Origin: Streptomyces sp. ISL-66
GTDB lineage: Bacteria > Actinomycetota > Actinomycetes > Streptomycetales > Streptomycetaceae
Assembly (NCBI RefSeq): GCF_018614135.1
Contig: NZ_JAGGOW010000029.1
Coordinates: 1-64,000, forward strand
Direction of reading: 5' to 3'
Length of the DNA: 64,000 nucleotides
Below, piece after piece: positions 2 to 8,005 of this stretch. Position 1 is the first letter of the stretch. Every line of letters begins with the position of its first letter. A program made the translations under genes and the position numbers. The notes beneath the pieces are model-generated. The model saw only the letters and a program-made list of their open reading frames with translations. It was not told the DNA's origin and made no database searches.

Positions 2-979
2 GGCCGCGCCCTGCTGGCGGGCGGGGACCCGGCGCCGCTGCTCGCGCCGCTGCTGCCCGAGCCGGTGGACCACGTACTGCTCCAGGCCGACCTGACGGCG
101 GTGGCCCCGGGGCCGCTGCGCCGGGCGCTCGCCGACGTCCTGGCCGTGCTCGCGGACGTGGAGTCCAAGGGCGGGGCCACCGTGTACCGCTTCACGCCCG
201 GCTCGGTGCGCCGCGCCCTGGACGCCGGCCACACGGCCGTCGACCTGCAGGCGTTCCTGACCGAGCACAGCCGCACCCCGGTGCCGCAGCCGTTGTCGTA
301 CCTCATCGACGACGTGGCGCGCCGCCACGGCCACCTCCGGGTCGGCGCGGCCTCCTCCTACGTGCGCTGCGACGACGACGGCATGCTCAACGAGATCCTG
401 GCCGACAAGCGCTCGGCGGGCCTGGGACTGCGCCGCCTCGCGCCCACCGTGCTGGCGGCGCAGGCCGAACCGGGCGCGCTGCTGGACGGGTTGCGGGGCA
501 TGGGGTACGCACCGGCCGCGGAATCCCGTACGGGTGACGTCCTGGTCTCCCGCGCCGACGCCCACCGCACGCCGGCCCGCTCGGCGCCCGTACCCGTCCC
601 GGACGGGCCGCCGGTGCCGGACGCGACCCTGCTGGGCGCGGCGCTACGGGCCATCCGAGCGGGCGACGCGGCGGCGACGGCGGTGCGCAAGGAGCCTGCG
701 GCCTCCGGGACTTCGGGGTCCGCCGGCGGCGCGGCGGGCGCACTCCCGCGCACCAGCGCGGCGGAGACCCTGGCGACGGTGCAGGCGGCCGCGCTGACCG
801 GCTCGGCGGTGTGGATCGGCTACGTCAACGCGGACGGGGCGGCCAGCCAGCGGGTCATCGCCCCGGTCCGGGTGGAGGGCGGCTTCGTCACCGGCTACGA
901 CCACACCGCGGACGAGGTCCGGACGTACGCCCTGCACCGGATCACGGGCGTCGCGGAACTGGCGGAGGATCAGGTCTAG
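2..979 (+). CDS. Helicase-associated domain protein, 3' part
   Basis: The reading frame is open from the first bases of the window, so this is the C-terminal part (about 325 residues) of a gene beginning upstream. The stretch VLLQADLTAVAPGPL followed by an alpha/beta region is typical of the helicase C-terminal-associated domain seen in large actinobacterial proteins related to the XPB/Ssl2 N-terminal region. The extreme C-terminus has a WYL-like fold signature (VWIGYVNADGAASQRVIAPVRVEGG). An Ala/Gly-rich linker lies near residues 215-240 of the visible part. The family often lies near xpb, as it does here (xpb starts at 6362). The role in DNA repair or transcription is inferred, not shown. 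Confidence 0.8.
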   Translation, partial: GRALLAGGDPAPLLAPLLPEPVDHVLLQADLTAVAPGPLRRALADVLAVLADVESKGGATVYRFTPGSVRRALDAGHTAVDLQAFLTEHSRTPVPQPLSYLIDDVARRHGHLRVGAASSYVRCDDDGMLNEILADKRSAGLGLRRLAPTVLAAQAEPGALLDGLRGMGYAPAAESRTGDVLVSRADAHRTPARSAPVPVPDGPPVPDATLLGAALRAIRAGDAAATAVRKEPAASGTSGSAGGAAGALPRTSAAETLATVQAAALTGSAVWIGYVNADGAASQRVIAPVRVEGGFVTGYDHTADEVRTYALHRITGVAELAEDQV

Positions 980-1204
980 CGGGAGTCCGGGGCTCCCCGG
1001 CATCGACGCCCCTGGGGCCAAACAGGTCGAGTGGTTCCGTTTCCGCAGGTCAGATGGCGCGTAACTGCCGCTGTTGCACAGCGGTGACGTTCCGACGACG
1101 GGTCGGAGACGCGCTCCGTGTGAAGATCAGTTCATCGCAGCAGCGACCGGGGGGAAAGCAACCGGACCGCCAGCGAGAACCGCACCACACGCCAGGCGTT
1201 CGAC

Positions 1205-1237
1205 CTCCCCCAGCTACCGCCGGGAGGTGCCCCCTGG
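1205..1237 (+). repeat. 33-bp dispersed repeat, copy 1
   Basis: This 33-bp sequence, which begins ctcccccagctaccg, recurs at 31573-31605 in reverse orientation with two mismatches. It can fold on itself (ctcccc / gggagg). The gap from 980 to 1331 otherwise shows no gene; it is the leader of the secreted-protein gene that follows. Confidence 0.7.
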
Positions 1238-1331
1238 CCACACCTCGCTCGGCCGCTCATCCTCCGCTCCGCCTCTCGGCCTCTCGGCCGCCACTGCCAT
1301 CTGATCTTGAAGATTCCTGGGGGAGTCCACC

Positions 1332-2609
1332 ATGTCCGCTCGCACCGCCGCCCTCCGCAACACCTCCGCCGCCGTCGTCGCCGCCGCCATCGCCGGTACC
1401 GTCCTGATGCCGCTGTCGGCCCACGCGGCCGGAAGCGAAGACGGTTCCACGGGTCTGAAGACCACGATGACCGCCCCGGTACCGAGCGGCCCGCTGACCC
1501 GCGGCGGTGCGGCGCAGACCTTCGAACTGACGGTGGCCAACCCGACGGACAAGGTCTCCGCCTACCACCCGTGGGCGATCCTCGACCACACCGGCAACAG
1601 CCCCGTCCAGGACGGCGACGTGTCCTTCAAGGTCGAAGCGGTGAACGCCCCCGCGACCACCGCCCGCATCGGACACCAGGACGGCGGCTGGCAGGGCATG
1701 TTCTACCCGACCGGCCCGAAGGAGTTCGAGCCCTTCGAGATCCCCGCGGGCGGGAAGCTGACCTGGAAGATCACCATCGGCCTCGGCGCGAGCTACCCGA
1801 CCGTCAACGGCGACTTCACGCTGGCCGTACCGAACTACAGCCACCCGAGCGGCGACGTCCCCTCCCTGACCTTCAAGACCAGCCCGGCGACGAAGCCCGG
1901 CACCCTCAAGGCCGCGTTCGAGCAGCTCGGCCCCTGCGAGGTCAACGGCGGTGACGACTGCCGGATGATGGCCCTGCGCTACTCGGTCACCGGCGACGGC
2001 GAGTTCAACTCCGCCCTCGGCACCTGGTTCTCGGTCGACCTGCCCGACGAGGACCGGAACAAGGCCGACCTCCAGGCGCGCGTCAGGGTCGACGGCCAGT
2101 GGAAGGACGTGAAGGTCGCGCACGGCGAGGTCAACATGCCGGTCATCCCCAAGGGCTTCGGCGCCGCCTCCGGCGACCGCGTCACGTACGTGCAGCTCAA
2201 GCTCGGCCCGAAGTCCCAGATCAAGAAGCTCACCAAGGCCAAGGCGACCGCCCAGGTCCACCTGACCGAGGGTCTCGTCTTCAGCTTCGTGGAGAACTCG
2301 CAGCAGTTCTCGCTCGGCCCCGCCGCCCCCGCGCCCACCACCCCGGCCCCGACCAGCCCGGCCCCGACCAAGCCGGTTCCGGCCACCCCCGCGCCCACCA
2401 CCCCGGCCCCGACCGGCTCCACGACCACCACCCCGGTGGCCTCCACGACCCCGATCGCGGCGAACGCCCCCGTCGCGACCGGCTCCCTCGCGCACACCGG
2501 ATCCGACTCCAACACCGGCCTTTACACCGCCCTCGCCGCCGCACTCATCGCCCTGGGCGGAGCGGCCGCCTGGCTCGGCGCCCGCCGCCGCAAGGCCGTC
2601 CGCGGCTAG
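1332..2609 (+). CDS. Secreted protein with LAXTG sortase anchor
   Basis: A 425-residue surface protein. It starts with a Sec signal peptide (about residues 1-33, ending SAHA), then two beta-rich regions of roughly 130 residues each. A Pro-Thr-rich wall-spanning linker follows (about 335-365, repeats of APTTPAP). The end is a sorting signal: LAHTG near 386-390, a hydrophobic stretch, and the basic tail ARRRKAVRG. LAXTG is the motif used by class E sortases of Streptomyces. A run GGGGAG lies about 8-13 bases before the ATG. The gene ends at a strong terminator. The function of the beta domains is not recognised. Confidence 0.85.
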   Translation: MSARTAALRNTSAAVVAAAIAGTVLMPLSAHAAGSEDGSTGLKTTMTAPVPSGPLTRGGAAQTFELTVANPTDKVSAYHPWAILDHTGNSPVQDGDVSFKVEAVNAPATTARIGHQDGGWQGMFYPTGPKEFEPFEIPAGGKLTWKITIGLGASYPTVNGDFTLAVPNYSHPSGDVPSLTFKTSPATKPGTLKAAFEQLGPCEVNGGDDCRMMALRYSVTGDGEFNSALGTWFSVDLPDEDRNKADLQARVRVDGQWKDVKVAHGEVNMPVIPKGFGAASGDRVTYVQLKLGPKSQIKKLTKAKATAQVHLTEGLVFSFVENSQQFSLGPAAPAPTTPAPTSPAPTKPVPATPAPTTPAPTGSTTTTPVASTTPIAANAPVATGSLAHTGSDSNTGLYTALAAALIALGGAAAWLGARRRKAVRG

Positions 2610-2623
2610 TCCCACCCTCCGAC

Positions 2624-2670
2624 GACGGCGCGGGGGTCCGGCACACCATGTGCCGGACCCCCGCGCCGTC
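2624..2670 (+). terminator. Strong hairpin terminator
   Basis: A perfect 20-bp inverted repeat (2624-2643 with 2651-2670) with a 7-base loop, 15 bp after the stop of the LAXTG protein. It has no T tract, as usual for Streptomyces hairpin terminators. Confidence 0.9.
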
Positions 2671-2746
2671 CCGCTTCCCGCGCGTCGTGCTCCGGCACGA
2701 GTACCTACCGATCAGCCGCCGCTGCGGGGCCTGGCATGATCCCGTC

Positions 2747-3514
2747 GTGACCAGCACATTCGAATCAGCGGACGGATCCACCGAGATATCCACGGCCGGA
2801 TCCACGGCCGGATCCACGGCCGGATCCACGGCCGGATCTACGGCCGGATCTACGGCCGGGTCCCCGCCCGTGCCCGCTCTCGCCCCCGCTCCCCGGTACG
2901 TCCTGTTCGACGTCGACGGCACGCTCATCGACGCCGTCGCCAATCAGCGCCGGGTCTGGGCTACCTGGGCGGTCCGGTACGGCCTGGATCCGGACGAGGT
3001 CCACGCGGTGGCGCTGCGGACCCGGCCGCTGGAGACCTTCGCGGCCGTCGCCCCGGACCAGGACCCGCAGGCGTGCCTGGCCGCGCTCCACGCGCTGGAG
3101 GACGAGGACGTGCGCAGCGGCGTCTACGAGGCCTTCGACGGCGCGGCCGAGCTGCTGGGCGCTCTGCCCCCGGCCCGCTGGGGACTGGTCACCTCGAACT
3201 ACGAACACCGCGTGCGCGGCCGCTTCGCCCGCACCGGCCTGCCAGTTGCCCCGGTCCTCGTCGACGCCGCCTGCGTCGCGGAGGGCAAGCCGTCCCCGGT
3301 CCCGTACCTGCTGGGCGCCCGGCGCCTGGGCGCTGATCCGCGGGACTGCCTGGTCGTCGAGGACGCCCCCTCGGGCATCCGCTCGGGGCTGAGCGCGGGC
3401 ATGACGGTCTGGTCCGTCAACACCCCCACCCCGCCCCCCGGCAGCCACCGTCACTTCCCCACCCTGCGCGAGGCCGCCCCCGCCATCCTCGCCTTCGCCG
3501 CCGGCCGGGCCTGA
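2747..3514 (+). CDS. HAD-family phosphatase
   Basis: A 255-residue haloacid-dehalogenase hydrolase. Motif I is FDVDGTLID near residues 49-57, motif II is LVTSNY, and the Lys motif is EGKPSPVPYLLGA followed by the acidic motif VVEDAPSGI. This matches the phosphoglycolate/sugar-phosphate phosphatase branch with an alpha-helical cap; the substrate is unknown. The GTG start at 2747 follows the terminator closely and has no clear ribosome site. Residues about 10-40 are a GSTA repeat encoded by a 12-bp minisatellite. A shorter product starting after the repeat is possible, since the fold begins only at RYVLFDVDG. Confidence 0.85.
   Translation: MTSTFESADGSTEISTAGSTAGSTAGSTAGSTAGSTAGSPPVPALAPAPRYVLFDVDGTLIDAVANQRRVWATWAVRYGLDPDEVHAVALRTRPLETFAAVAPDQDPQACLAALHALEDEDVRSGVYEAFDGAAELLGALPPARWGLVTSNYEHRVRGRFARTGLPVAPVLVDAACVAEGKPSPVPYLLGARRLGADPRDCLVVEDAPSGIRSGLSAGMTVWSVNTPTPPPGSHRHFPTLREAAPAILAFAAGRA
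2788..2859 (+). repeat. 12-bp minisatellite inside the HAD gene
   Basis: Six head-to-tail copies of atccacggccgg. The last two copies read atctacggccgg. The unit length keeps frame and encodes repeated Gly-Ser-Thr-Ala ahead of the catalytic domain, so copy-number change would only lengthen a flexible N-terminal arm. Confidence 0.95.
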
Positions 3515-3568
3515 GGCCACCGGCCCCCGAAGCCGTCCGAGCGGCATGTTCCCGATCAAGTGGCGATG

Positions 3569-3634
3569 CGGCACACTGGAGGTTTGACCTGAGTGACACG
3601 GGGCGCCGCGCGTGAATGGTCCACTGATTGTCCA
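3569..3634 (+). repeat. Left direct repeat (copy of xpb 5' end)
   Basis: Matches 6319-6384 at a fixed offset of 2750 bases, with a single difference at 3597 (c versus a). It contains gcacactggaggtttgacct and the GTG start at 3612. After the repeat ends the frame runs into a stop within a few codons, so this copy makes no XPB. Confidence 0.95.
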
Positions 3635-3685
3635 TTCGATCAAGCCCGATACACATACTTAGCCCGCCGGGGAGCTGAGCGGGAA

Positions 3686-3724
3686 GCCCCGCCCGGCTGT
3701 CCGCTAACCGGCGCCGGACGGGGC
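3686..3724 (-). terminator. Hairpin after the two small reverse genes
   Basis: Imperfect 12-bp inverted repeat (3686-3697 with 3713-3724, one mismatch, 15-base loop), just beyond the stop codon at 3736 of the reverse-strand pair. Confidence 0.5.
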
Positions 3725-3735
3725 CGTTCAAGGGG

Positions 3736-3960
3736 CTACTCGACGCGCGTCACAAGGGCCACGTCCTCGTACCTCCTCGCGAACGTGGGGTGACCCGTAC
3801 GGCCCGTGTGAGACAGGCACGCCACGTCCACGGCGGCCACGTCCGGGATCACCGCTGACGCCCATCGGCAATCAGGGTCGAGACACTGCGCCGACACGCT
3901 GATCTCCCCGGTGGGATGAGAGGTGATGCGGTGTTGTACGTACCGCATGACGGTGGTCAC
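3736..3960 (-). CDS. Small Streptomyces protein, DUF7848-like
   Basis: A 74-residue protein. It starts MTTVMRYVQHRI and has a Cys pair (SAQCLDPDCRW) and a later Cys-His pair (ACLSHTGRTGH). The pattern resembles the small Cys-containing proteins (DUF7848 type) that accompany XRE regulators in Streptomyces. Its GTG start overlaps the stop of the upstream reverse gene by four bases (GTGA), so the two are translationally coupled. The spaced Cys/His residues could bind zinc; that is inference. It sits in the cassette that interrupts the region upstream of xpb. Confidence 0.65.
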   Translation of the reverse strand: MTTVMRYVQHRITSHPTGEISVSAQCLDPDCRWASAVIPDVAAVDVACLSHTGRTGHPTFARRYEDVALVTRVE

Positions 3961-4163
3961 CGCTTCCGTCCCGGGTGCGGGTGCTGCCGGATCTCCACAT
4001 TGCAGTCAGTGACCCCGGATGCGTTGCGCTCGCTCCGATACGCGGCCCGCTGGTTCACCAGGGCGGCGCACACATCGCACCCGGGGTGGGGCTCCGCGTC
4101 AGGCCGCTCAAAGGGGTCCCGCTGGGGCACCTGAACCCAAAGCCGCTGTGCCGTCGCCACCAT
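3957..4163 (-). CDS. Small conserved hypothetical protein
   Basis: A 68-residue protein. The ATG at 4163 was chosen because a GAGGGG ribosome site precedes it by about 6 bases; longer in-frame starts exist up to 4223. The core, CDVCAALVNQRAAYRSERNASGVTDCNVEIRQH, holds a CxxC and a later Cys. It looks like a short family found beside XRE regulators in Streptomyces. It overlaps the next reverse gene by four bases and is divergent from the XRE gene at 4309. No function is known to me. Confidence 0.6.
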   Translation of the reverse strand: MVATAQRLWVQVPQRDPFERPDAEPHPGCDVCAALVNQRAAYRSERNASGVTDCNVEIRQHPHPGRKR

Positions 4164-4238
4164 GCCGCACCCCTCTGCGTTGCCCATCGAGCGTGCTCTA
4201 ACCATCGGCCCCTCCAATTGCACGGCCTAGTGAGATCC

Positions 4239-4286
4239 CTAGTGGCAACCCCAGCCGGCGGAAGGAAAGAGGGCTGTCTAGTGGCA
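4239..4286. promoter_or_regulatory. Repeated CTAGTGGCA motif in divergent promoter region
   Basis: The 9-mer CTAGTGGCA occurs at 4239-4247 and 4278-4286, and a partial copy (CTAGTGAGA) starts at 4227. All lie between the divergent small genes and the XRE gene. The second copy is 22 bases before the ATG at 4309. Repeated direct motifs here are a reasonable candidate for the XRE binding site. Confidence 0.4.
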
Positions 4287-4308
4287 CTCCGGGTGGCAGG
4301 CTGAGCCC

Positions 4309-5445
4309 ATGGAACTCGGGGCACTGATCAGTGATCTCCGCAAGGCTCGCGGGTGGAGCCAGGGGCGGTTAGCGTCAGCGATCAACACGGCGTACGGCAC
4401 CACGCTCACGCGGGAGTACGTGAGCAACTGGGAGCGTTCCAAGGTGACGCCCGGCGCGTTCTACCTTGCCGCGCTGTCCGCCACGCTCGACGTGCCCCTA
4501 GCTGTCCTGGAAGGCCAAGTGGACCGACGCGAGTTCCTCACCGACGTGGCAGGGGTCGCCATAGCCCCTGTCGTGGCCTCAGACCTGCTGTCCGCAGGAT
4601 TCGCTGCCCGACTCTCCGGCGGGCCCTCAGTGGACGCCTGGGAGGCCAAGCTGACCACCTACGGCACGGAATACATGAGCCTTGGGGCTGCCGACATTCA
4701 GCGTCGCATCAGTGGTGAACTCGTCGTCGTCCAGCAGCAGCTAGACACCCCCCGGCTGTGGTCGGTCGCCTCCCGTCTGATGACCCTGTACGCCAAGACG
4801 TTTCCGGGTTCGGATGGCTCCAAAGCTGTCCACTGGTACCGGATGGCAGCGAGAGCCGCAGACGAGTCCGGAGACGATGACGCACGAGTGTGGGTGCGTG
4901 GACGTGCTGCTATCGCCCTGGGCTACGAGGGGGCATCGTTGGGAGTCGCCGATGTGCTCGCGGACCAGGCCTTGGCCATATCGGAACGGCCCTCTCTGGG
5001 CCTCCTGAACGCCGTAATGGGCAAGGCTCACGCCGCAGCGCTTCGAGGTGACCGAGCCACGGCACTCAAGCTCGCCGAGGACGGCCGGCGAATCTTCGAC
5101 AAGGCCGGTTCCTACGAGCAGACCAGCGACTACGCCGTGCCCTGGTGGCGCATGAATGTCTTCCTGTCGCTCCTCCTGGCCCGCCTGGGTGACGAACAAG
5201 GGGCAGTTCAGGCACAGGAAGCGGCGCGGCGTGAACTACCCGCAGAGCTGCCTCGGTTCGCGACTCATCTCGAGATGCACCGTGGCCTCATGCTTGCCCG
5301 CTCCGGCGACGTATCCGGTGGGACCGCTTACGCGCGGGGCGCGCTGGATGCCCTGCCACCGGAAAAGCACTCGCTCACTCTGCGGCTCCTCATGGAGGAG
5401 ATCGAAGAGCGCGCAATCCCTGCCTCACGATCGGAGCACTCTTGA
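4309..5445 (+). CDS. XRE-family regulator with TPR-like C-terminus
   Basis: A 378-residue protein. Residues 1-62 form a Cro/CI helix-turn-helix (LISDLRKARGWSQGRLASAI, then YVSNWERSKVTPGAF). Residues about 130-370 are alpha-helical repeats of TPR character (RAADESGDDDARVWVRGRAAIALGYEG). Streptomyces has many regulators of this build, often beside small genes of unknown role. The stop overlaps the TTG start of the nuclease gene, so the two are probably one operon. It likely controls its own divergent promoter; the signal sensed is unknown. Base composition is less GC-rich than in the flanking genes, consistent with acquisition. Confidence 0.85.
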   Translation: MELGALISDLRKARGWSQGRLASAINTAYGTTLTREYVSNWERSKVTPGAFYLAALSATLDVPLAVLEGQVDRREFLTDVAGVAIAPVVASDLLSAGFAARLSGGPSVDAWEAKLTTYGTEYMSLGAADIQRRISGELVVVQQQLDTPRLWSVASRLMTLYAKTFPGSDGSKAVHWYRMAARAADESGDDDARVWVRGRAAIALGYEGASLGVADVLADQALAISERPSLGLLNAVMGKAHAAALRGDRATALKLAEDGRRIFDKAGSYEQTSDYAVPWWRMNVFLSLLLARLGDEQGAVQAQEAARRELPAELPRFATHLEMHRGLMLARSGDVSGGTAYARGALDALPPEKHSLTLRLLMEEIEERAIPASRSEHS

Positions 5446-6272
5446 AGAATACGGGCGAATCCTTCGAAAGTTATGTCCAGTTCGTCTATCAGACCCTGCT
5501 GGGAGCCCAGGGGCGAAACATCTCGGTGTCTAGGCGAGCGACGGTCTTCGACAACCACGGAAACTCCTACAACATCGACATCTTCTACGAGTTCGATGTG
5601 GCAGGTCTCCACCACAGGGTGGCCATCGAGTGCAAGGACACCCGTCGTCCCGTGGAACGCGACGACGCCATCGCTTTCGCCGGGAAGATCAGGGATCTGC
5701 CCAGCACCATCGGGATCTTCATTTCGAAGAGCGGCTTCCAGCCCGCCGCGCGCAAGTACCTTCAGGACCACGGAATCGTCCACTACGCCGGAGGGGATCT
5801 TCCCCACCTCGGCAATGTGATCGCCGCCATGATCTCCCCGATCGCCTGCCCGGCGGAGTCCGCGGTGGGACAGCCCTTCTGGACCCTGATGAGGCAGGAG
5901 AACGGGGAAGCCACCGGAGAGTGGTGCCTGATTCCGGATCCGAACGACCCCCGGAACGCCTCAGGGACCGAGCGCGACAACGACACGGGCGCCTTCCCCT
6001 TGTTCTATTCACGTCCGCACGCCGAAAGTTTTCGTACCCTCCGCTATCAGGACTCGGCCGACGTCTGTGTACGCGGGGTGGAACAGTCCATGCTCCGCTT
6101 CCTCACGCTGATGGCTCACGACGAGAGGCGGAACTTCGCGATCTGCCTGCCCTTCGCCGACGAGCACGGCGCACCGAGAATCGCGTGCCACGGCTGGACC
6201 GCCAAGGACCTCGCCCACGAATACTGGGCGGACGAGGTCCCGGCATCGTTTGACAACCCTCCTCGCGGCTGA
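5442..6272 (+). CDS. Mrr-like restriction endonuclease (PD-(D/E)XK)
   Basis: A 276-residue protein. The catalytic pattern of a type IV Mrr-like nuclease is visible: D46 in NIDIFYEF, then E63-x-K65 in VAIECKD, then GIFISKSGFQPAARKYLQDHGI, which resembles the helix-strand element after the active site in Mrr catalytic domains. The last 150 residues match nothing I recognise and may read the target or partner. The TTG start at 5442 overlaps the XRE stop (TTGA), which indicates translational coupling. Cleavage of modified or foreign DNA is inferred from the family. A role in moving the cassette is a less likely alternative. Confidence 0.75.
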   Translation: MKNTGESFESYVQFVYQTLLGAQGRNISVSRRATVFDNHGNSYNIDIFYEFDVAGLHHRVAIECKDTRRPVERDDAIAFAGKIRDLPSTIGIFISKSGFQPAARKYLQDHGIVHYAGGDLPHLGNVIAAMISPIACPAESAVGQPFWTLMRQENGEATGEWCLIPDPNDPRNASGTERDNDTGAFPLFYSRPHAESFRTLRYQDSADVCVRGVEQSMLRFLTLMAHDERRNFAICLPFADEHGAPRIACHGWTAKDLAHEYWADEVPASFDNPPRG

Positions 6273-6318
6273 ACGACGGACACACGCCGTCCCGCGGCTC
6301 GTTTGTTCCGCCGGCGTA

Positions 6319-6384
6319 CGGCACACTGGAGGTTTGACCTGAGTGAAACGGGGCGCCGCGCGTGAATGGTCCACTGATTGTCCA
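6319..6384 (+). repeat. Right direct repeat at the xpb start
   Basis: Second copy of the 66-bp repeat. It supplies the leader, the GTG at 6362 and the first seven codons of the intact xpb gene. Confidence 0.95.
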
Positions 6385-8005
6385 AAGCGACAAAACGCTC
6401 CTCCTGGAGATCGACCACGAGCTGTCGGGCGCCGCGCGCCGTGCCATCGCGCCGTTCGCGGAGCTGGAGCGCGCTCCCGAGCACATCCACACGTACCGGA
6501 TCACCCCGCTCGGCCTCTGGAACGCGCGGGCCGCCGGCCACGACGCGGAGCAGGTCGTGGACGCGCTCGTGGAGTTCTCCCGCTACCCCGTCCCGCACGC
6601 GCTGCTCGTCGACATCGCCGAGACCATGGCCCGCTACGGCCGCCTGACGCTCTCCAAGCACCCCGTCCACGGGCTGGTCCTGACCAGCACCGACCGGCCG
6701 GTGCTGGAGGAGATCCTGCGGTCCAAGCGGATCGCCCCGCTCGTCGGCGCCCGGCTCGACGCCGACACCGTCGCCGTGCACCCCTCCGAGCGCGGGCAGA
6801 TCAAGCAGACCCTGCTCAAGCTGGGCTGGCCGGCTGAGGACCTCGCCGGGTACGTGGACGGCGAAGCGCACCCGATCGACCTGAACGAGGACGGCTGGGC
6901 GCTGCGCCCCTACCAGCAGCAGGCCGTCGAAGGCTTCTGGCACGGCGGCTCCGGGGTGGTCGTGCTGCCCTGCGGCGCCGGCAAGACCCTGGTCGGCGCC
7001 GGTGCGATGGCGAAGGCCAAGGCGACCACGCTGATCCTGGTCACGAACACCGTCTCCGCCCGCCAGTGGAAGCACGAGCTGATCAAGCGGACCTCGCTGA
7101 CGGAGGAGGAGATCGGCGAGTACTCCGGCACCCGCAAGGAGATCCGGCCGGTCACGATCGCCACGTACCAGGTCCTGACGACGAAGCGGAAGGGCATCTA
7201 CCCGCACCTGGAGCTCTTCGACTCCCGGGACTGGGGCCTGATCCTCTACGACGAGGTGCACCTGCTGCCGGCGCCGGTGTTCAAGTTCACCGCCGACCTC
7301 CAGGCGCGCCGCCGCCTCGGCCTGACCGCGACGCTGGTGCGCGAGGACGGCCGCGAGTCGGACGTGTTCTCGCTGATCGGTCCGAAGCGGTTCGACGCCC
7401 CGTGGAAGGAGATCGAGGCGCAGGGCTACATCGCCCCGGCGGACTGCGTCGAGGTCCGGGTGAACCTCACCGATTCGGAGCGCCTCGCCTACGCGACCGC
7501 CGAGACGGAGGAGAAGTACCGCTTCTGCGCGACCACCGCCACCAAGCGGAAGGTCACCGAGGCGCTGGTGCGCAAGCACGCGGGCGAGCAGACCCTGGTC
7601 ATCGGTCAGTACATCGACCAGCTCGACGAGCTCGGTGAGCACCTGGACGCGCCCGTCATCAAGGGCGAGACCTCCAACACGCAGCGCGAGAAGCTCTTCA
7701 ACGCCTTCCGCGAGGGCGAGATCAGCGTGCTGGTCGTCTCGAAGGTCGCGAACTTCTCCATCGACCTGCCGGAGGCCACGGTCGCCATCCAGGTGTCCGG
7801 CACCTTCGGCTCCCGCCAGGAGGAGGCGCAGCGCCTGGGCCGCGTCCTGCGCCCGAAGGCGGACGGCCACGAGGCGCGCTTCTACTCGGTCGTCGCGCGC
7901 GACACCATCGACCAGGACTTCGCGGCGCACCGCCAGCGCTTCCTGGCCGAGCAGGGCTACGCCTACCGGATCATGGACGCGGACGAGCTGCTGGCCGCGG
8001 ACTGA
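6362..8005 (+). CDS. xpb: DNA repair helicase XPB
   Basis: A 547-residue SF2 helicase of the bacterial XPB/RAD25 type, which unwinds DNA 3' to 5' in nucleotide excision repair. Walker A (PCGAGKT) is near residues 202-208, DEVH near 297-300, SGTFGSRQEEAQRLGRVLRPK is the motif V/VI region, and an N-terminal damage-recognition-like domain covers about 1-170. The start at 6362 gives MNGPLIVQSDKTLLLEID, which agrees with the family's usual N-terminus as I know it. Its promoter and first codons lie inside the right-hand repeat of the upstream cassette, so its expression now depends on that copy. Confidence 0.95.
   Translation: MNGPLIVQSDKTLLLEIDHELSGAARRAIAPFAELERAPEHIHTYRITPLGLWNARAAGHDAEQVVDALVEFSRYPVPHALLVDIAETMARYGRLTLSKHPVHGLVLTSTDRPVLEEILRSKRIAPLVGARLDADTVAVHPSERGQIKQTLLKLGWPAEDLAGYVDGEAHPIDLNEDGWALRPYQQQAVEGFWHGGSGVVVLPCGAGKTLVGAGAMAKAKATTLILVTNTVSARQWKHELIKRTSLTEEEIGEYSGTRKEIRPVTIATYQVLTTKRKGIYPHLELFDSRDWGLILYDEVHLLPAPVFKFTADLQARRRLGLTATLVREDGRESDVFSLIGPKRFDAPWKEIEAQGYIAPADCVEVRVNLTDSERLAYATAETEEKYRFCATTATKRKVTEALVRKHAGEQTLVIGQYIDQLDELGEHLDAPVIKGETSNTQREKLFNAFREGEISVLVVSKVANFSIDLPEATVAIQVSGTFGSRQEEAQRLGRVLRPKADGHEARFYSVVARDTIDQDFAAHRQRFLAEQGYAYRIMDADELLAAD

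Follow-up and report, generated by a model that had tools for sequence, protein, structure and literature searches.

We consider it probable that the XRE-type regulator gene and the Mrr-like nuclease gene at 4309-6272 of the window (the whole stretch of 64,000 nucleotides from Streptomyces sp. ISL-66 analysed here) belong to a 2.7-kb non-autonomous genomic islet, inserted within the opening codons of a gene for an XPB-type helicase. The islet lies between two helicase starts, of which the right one leads into the intact helicase gene, and a near-identical islet occupies the same site in a second species. The islet is well-bounded and probably mobile, with a restriction-like cargo. The locus is organized as follows.

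3569-3634, plus strand: attL-like left copy of a 66-bp direct repeat, spanning the helicase upstream region, the GTG start and the initial codons, behind which the gene breaks off
3736-3960, minus strand: DUF7848 ORF, 74 aa, Cys/His-containing, divergent from the XRE gene (Pfam, E 2.4e-8)
3957-4223, minus strand: 88-aa Cys-containing ORF from the ORF list, divergent from the XRE gene
4309-5445, plus strand: XRE regulator gene, 378 aa, ATG start; HTH_3 in Pfam
5442-6272, plus strand: nuclease gene, 276 aa, TTG start; Mrr_cat in Pfam
6319-6384, plus strand: attR-like right copy of the 66-bp direct repeat, spanning the region upstream of the intact helicase gene, its start codon and its initial codons
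6362-8005, plus strand: XPB/RAD25-type helicase gene, the target gene (Pfam ERCC3_RAD25_C, E 6.1e-46)

A preliminary description had presented the XRE–nuclease pair, with two small Cys-containing genes divergent to it, as a possible defence unit. The sequence agrees with it on both ORFs, their coordinates, the two small divergent ORFs and the 4-bp overlap at bases 5442-5445, in which TTGA holds the TTG start of the nuclease gene and the stop of the XRE gene. The natural unit, however, is larger than the pair and its frame had been missed: it extends from 3569 to 6384, between two copies of the 66-bp direct repeat (65/66 identical) which, in a repeat search, bound a ~2.7-kb segment holding all four genes. 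This repeat pair scores 7e-28 in a repeat test run with control stretches. The islet has a GC content of 65.3% versus 72.3% elsewhere in the window, and of 184 stretches of equal size sampled to its right, none is as low. A scan of 3500-6500 detected no sigma-70-type promoter and a single terminator-like site (6286-6298), no more than shuffled sequences yield. Elsewhere in the window, 12-bp tandem repeats at 2761-2868, near the 5' end of a HAD-family ORF, encode repeated GSTA, and a perfect 22-bp inverted repeat with a 3-base loop, probably a terminator, follows an LPXTG-like gene at 2624-2670.

Used as a query, the repeat matched 60 of 199 genus genomes, the window's own genome twice and the other 59 once each. 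A codon-degenerate pattern of the helicase start (23 bases, one mismatch allowed; table read by eye) occurs in 329 of 392 genomes, the 63 genomes lacking it being uninformative; two copies are present only in the window's genome (G000) and in G208, the remaining 327 have a single one, and the reversed-pattern control columns are all zero. Among 20 helicase loci read, a second start is found in that of G208 (L041) and in none of the other 19; L045 shows a 27-base partial match to the start within the helicase gene, and L047, for which only ~600 bases upstream of the helicase start were available, carries little weight. In several genomes (L046, L052 and L057) a WYL-domain gene closely precedes the helicase, a simpler arrangement. 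The spacing between these two genes varies across genomes from tens of bases to kilobases (979-3569 in the window; L042-L060), and L055 and L056 have the WYL gene in the opposite orientation to the helicase. The segment thus combines flanking repeats, one of which equals a site that stands intact and single-copy elsewhere, with variable presence and unoccupied sites in relatives, the features of a site-specifically integrated genomic islet. On the other side, no recombinase was hit among its four gene-like ORFs, so that it lacks the integrase of its own that defines an autonomous integrative element; in addition, the helicase-start pattern was not found in viral contigs, nor islet DNA in phages.

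The only other intact copy lies in G208, which we take to be Streptomyces sp. ISL-43 and which carries the same islet at the same helicase site. The islet interiors are 99.1% identical (23 substitutions in 2683), whereas the helicase behind the repeat is 95.6% and the HAD gene to the left 87.5% identical. All four islet ORFs are open in both strains, the XRE–nuclease overlap is present in both, and the DUF7848 ORF runs 32 residues further in ISL-43 than in the window. These comparisons bear on whether ordinary homologous recombination carried a chromosome piece comprising islet and helicase gene between the two species, as an alternative to fresh site-specific integration. Such a transfer would be in keeping with the missing integrase and with an adjoining helicase that is itself rather alike (the window's helicase is 92-93% identical to those of four other genomes); however, identity falls from 99.1% to 95.6% right after the repeat and is down to 87.5% on the left, and in ISL-43 the left start (GTGAACGGGCCCCTCATCGTCCA) differs in type from the right start (GTGAATGGTCCACTCATCGTCCA). 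The left and right starts of ISL-43 have 11 exact bases in common at the junction, inside 36 bases that are 83% alike. A match of this length is too short for ordinary homologous recombination to use. We therefore prefer a site-specific event and regard transfer with a chromosome piece as unlikely.

Two features of the junctions sit less easily with a site-specific islet. Control stretches give chance pairs as strong as the ISL-43 repeat by itself (36 bases, 83%, E 7e-4), and this repeat is telling solely through its position at the helicase start. Moreover, G000 and ISL-43 differ from each other at 2 bases of the junction core, and in the last nine junction bases each strain carries its own version (GATTGTCCA or CATCGTCCA) at both junctions. 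A plain attP × attB exchange involving one element leaves this pattern unexplained, and we therefore assume conversion or a staggered exchange.

A third trace is found in G347 (L123, reverse strand), where a diverged and truncated piece of the nuclease C-terminal part, 42-47% identical, lies ~190-400 bases before the start of the XPB-type helicase, its stop being 187 bases before the helicase GTG. The 14 kb read in this genome contain no XRE match and no left repeat. We take the piece as the truncated trace of an older, different insertion; its place supports an islet at the helicase start, and the missing left repeat speaks against one. The same piece would fit a decayed remnant of a larger prophage- or plasmid-like integrative element whose integrase and transfer genes were lost, with the XRE and small genes as leftovers and the nuclease as the sole selected gene. 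That XRE homologues turn up next to recombinase and phage genes, as well as on plasmids and two viral contigs, points the same way, but four ORFs open in both species, a 99.1% identical interior and shared ends resemble a transferable small unit, an argument that the differing end of the DUF7848 ORF qualifies. Decay from a larger element, which is compatible with the islet explanation, is possible though doubtful. A phage origin was rejected: neither the nuclease nor islet DNA was found in phages, and neither the nuclease nor the start pattern in viral contigs, although XRE relatives occur in two of the latter.

The nuclease was described as a PD-(D/E)XK enzyme. The Mrr_cat profile (PF04471) matches residues 5-120 with 31.1 bits against a curated cut-off of 21 (E 2.7e-7), the DUF7848 profile proposed together with it matches the ORF at 3736-3960 (E 2.4e-8), and residues D46, E63, C64 and K65 are located as stated. 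Loss of the catalytic residues in homologues, named beforehand as an argument against the proposal, is not what we found: D46 and E63 are invariant across nine aligned sequences (the window sequence and eight relatives, one of them the near-identical ISL-43 copy), and the equivalent of K65 is an arginine in a single distant sequence, L101, which is the least certain of the relatives and itself gives no Mrr_cat hit. This conservation counts in favour of a nuclease cargo in the islet. Residues ~125-276, noted before as unrecognised, match nothing in Pfam, NCBIfam or PHROGs, and Pfam gives no Mrr-N domain on the protein. The structure prediction suggested for this part yielded a poor model of the whole nuclease (pLDDT 42), the C-terminal domain stays without assignment, and a sequence search at E 1 returned no solved structure.

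The nuclease is rare in the genomes searched. In 392 Streptomyces genomes four matched, with full-length copies in G000 and G208; the remaining two matches cover residues 31-113, in the nuclease domain (G170), and residues 217-271 at 42% identity (G347). In a phylum sample of 396 genomes eight have matches, one being the window's own genome and the other seven partial only (E 5.5e-8 to 8.8e-5). No match was obtained in phages or in viral contigs. The window's genome holds three more Mrr_cat matches above cut-off, on contigs C171, C176 and C21. By tblastn, 18 plasmid records matched, of which two reach at least 80% query coverage, both from Pantoea agglomerans (35%), followed in coverage by Pantoea piersonii (77%). 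These three relatives (WP_172607963.1, WP_235765227.1 and WP_126689326.1) are 32-36% identical across Mrr_cat and the C-terminal domain; the full-length relatives found are thus orphan genes on Pantoea plasmids, annotated as restriction endonuclease.

A profile of the C-terminal domain (five rows, the G347 fragment among them) matches 3 of 392 genomes, G000, G208 and G347, always directly upstream of the XPB-type helicase gene. Because of this constant position, the nuclease could be imagined to work with the helicase, its C-terminal domain binding the latter to make an inducible helicase–nuclease pair, so that insertion at the helicase start would have been selected for co-expression and not only dictated by a recombinase. 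Archaeal XPB–Bax1 offers a comparison for such a pair. We hold this partnership to be very unlikely.

The XRE regulator carries HTH_3 (5.6e-8) and HTH_31 domains in Pfam. Its model (mean pLDDT 76.6, built from four sequences) shows the HTH followed by helical TPR-like repeats, and a fold search returned one PDB chain under E 0.001, PlcR (E 1.4e-4), a weak match with TM 0.35-0.45 and rmsd 16.5. The combination of HTH and helical repeats weakly resembles that of PlcR, ComR, Rgg2 and PrgX, regulators of the RRNPP-type HTH-TPR class, and a peptide-sensing role is, on the model, only a possibility. At a threshold of E 1e-40, homologues were found in 12 of 150 genomes with 14 matches, the window's own included (11 other genomes with 13 matches, 61-91% identical), as well as in 10 plasmid records. 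In L082 and L130 a serine recombinase gene lies within ~2 kb or less of the homologue; at such a distance L129 has a tyrosine integrase, L076 a resolvase and L077 a phage portal gene. These were identified by running ten selected proteins against Pfam, a selection and not a count over all loci. On Streptomyces plasmids L105, L107-L110 and L112, five of the six linear, the XRE gene is again accompanied by one or two small genes in divergent orientation, amid changing neighbours. Modules like this XRE one occur on Streptomyces plasmids and in the vicinity of recombinase genes, in line with a mobile islet. Repeats around other XRE loci were considered as evidence and discounted: imperfect direct repeats (~130 and 163 bases, 82-84%) flank the homologues in L081 and L084, the two strong cases among 13 genome loci, the seven plasmid loci, with their shorter flanks, have none, and 3 of 31 control stretches (L050, L055 and L056) also reach E < 1e-9.

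A conserved link between XRE and nuclease had been set beforehand as a test of the defence unit, and the neighbourhood survey did not find it outside the two near-identical islets. At E 0.01 the nuclease is present at none of 23 other loci read (13 genome loci, seven of the 10 plasmids, plasmid L111, which was found by its small genes, and two viral contigs). The small divergent gene is the commoner partner of the XRE gene. The 88-aa ORF has no Pfam match at E 1. Of 20 other loci on genomes and plasmids, 10 have an ORF like it in the 900 bases upstream of XRE and four have a DUF7848-like match there, one of them marginal (both at E 0.05); in L130 the relative of the 88-aa ORF sits between XRE and the serine recombinase. 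No mention of DUF7848 was found in the literature. A 165-base stretch elsewhere in the window's genome (G000:C62:5738-5902), 69% identical to 3975-4139 within the 88-aa ORF, is perhaps a further copy. Of 20 XRE relatives, 16 end at about residues 365-371, whereas the window XRE reaches residue 378 with a tail ~7-13 residues longer. This longer tail reaches the nuclease start, which points to the nuclease gene having been added behind XRE at a later time.

These data weigh on the proposal of a dedicated XRE–nuclease unit for defence or abortive infection, in which XRE would silence a toxic nuclease until infection. The 4-bp gene overlap, kept in the same arrangement in ISL-43, and a helical TPR-like XRE part that could sense something are in its favour, as is a Pantoea piersonii plasmid locus (L097), where the nuclease relative weakly matches PDC-S02 (1.2e-4) and adjoins a gene matching LmuA (1.5e-7); the two P. 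agglomerans relatives have no PADLOC match. In L097 (628-3621) the relative stands head to head with this LmuA-matching gene, which belongs to an ABC-three component system. Yet the nuclease is missing from all 23 other loci and full-length in just 2 of 392 genomes, and none of the three Pantoea relatives adjoins an XRE gene among the genes listed in their incomplete plasmid tables. The dedicated unit has in our judgement a low probability, and a conserved XRE–nuclease system as a general unit was rejected on the rarity of the nuclease and its absence from the 23 loci. In PADLOC no known anti-phage component was convincingly matched, with best E values for the nuclease of 0.015 (PDC-S02) and 0.024 (mREase_IV), and the hits of XRE (best 1.8e-4) span its HTH part only.

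For the islet itself, we envisage that the left repeat copy is the native helicase start and that the right copy came with the islet from another lineage, through a site-specific insertion by a recombinase that acted in trans or has since been lost. XRE would control the islet genes including the nuclease, possibly with translational coupling via the overlapping start, and the Mrr_cat nuclease, with its unusual domain order, would be the cargo of the XRE module. It may cut incoming, perhaps modified, DNA, as orphan type IV-like enzymes do. Judged from sequence, the predicted nuclease is most likely restriction-like defence cargo under XRE control; against this function stand the lack of a convincing PADLOC match, the poor model and a C-terminal domain with no family match.

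Precedents in Streptomyces coelicolor make a defence-type nuclease plausible, a part of the original proposal that stands: an Mrr-like gene lies on a genomic islet and an Mrr-related enzyme acted against modified DNA in vivo (PMC1934918, PMC3874153). In that species, islet Gi-10 has SCO4213 (Mrr-like), SLP1/Gi-11 has ScoMcrA (Sco4631), and near-perfect direct repeats flank 9 of 23 regions (PMC1934918, PMC3009677). The window islet is like these in placing restriction-type genes on a strain-specific Streptomyces island, SCO4213 being likened by kind of gene as described there; unlike them, it measures only 2.7 kb, has a helicase 5' end as its insertion point and carries no integrase. EcoKMrr has an N-terminal Mrr-N and MspJI an N-terminal SRA-like domain, with Mrr-cat C-terminal in both (PMC3874153). 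The window nuclease shares with them an Mrr_cat domain with D, E and K, but has it at the N terminus with the rare C-terminal domain behind, and so does not have the EcoKMrr-type architecture of N-terminal Mrr-N and C-terminal Mrr-cat. The Pantoea orphan genes are similar to it over both domains and differ in having no adjacent XRE among listed genes and, in one case, in lying beside an ABC-three component system gene. Elements in dusA such as IMEVchUSA3 have an integrase. ICE SXT, in prfC, also has one; the window islet differs from both in lacking it. The literature search found no work joining Streptomyces, genomic island, attB, helicase gene, direct repeats and nuclease, and none of the papers on Streptomyces and XPB helicase concerned an insertion site as far as titles and abstract openings tell.

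The islet varies on what is already known; its target gene and the domain order of its nuclease are unusual. If our reading is true, a very small cargo unit can enter the start of a conserved helicase gene and leave the gene intact without a recombinase of its own, and it would have brought into Streptomyces an unusual nuclease, with Mrr_cat at the N terminus and a rare domain at the C terminus. The near-identical islets of the two species would then be well suited to tracing the helper recombinase, and, if the nuclease restricts DNA, it would form an extra barrier to DNA uptake in an antibiotic-producing genus.
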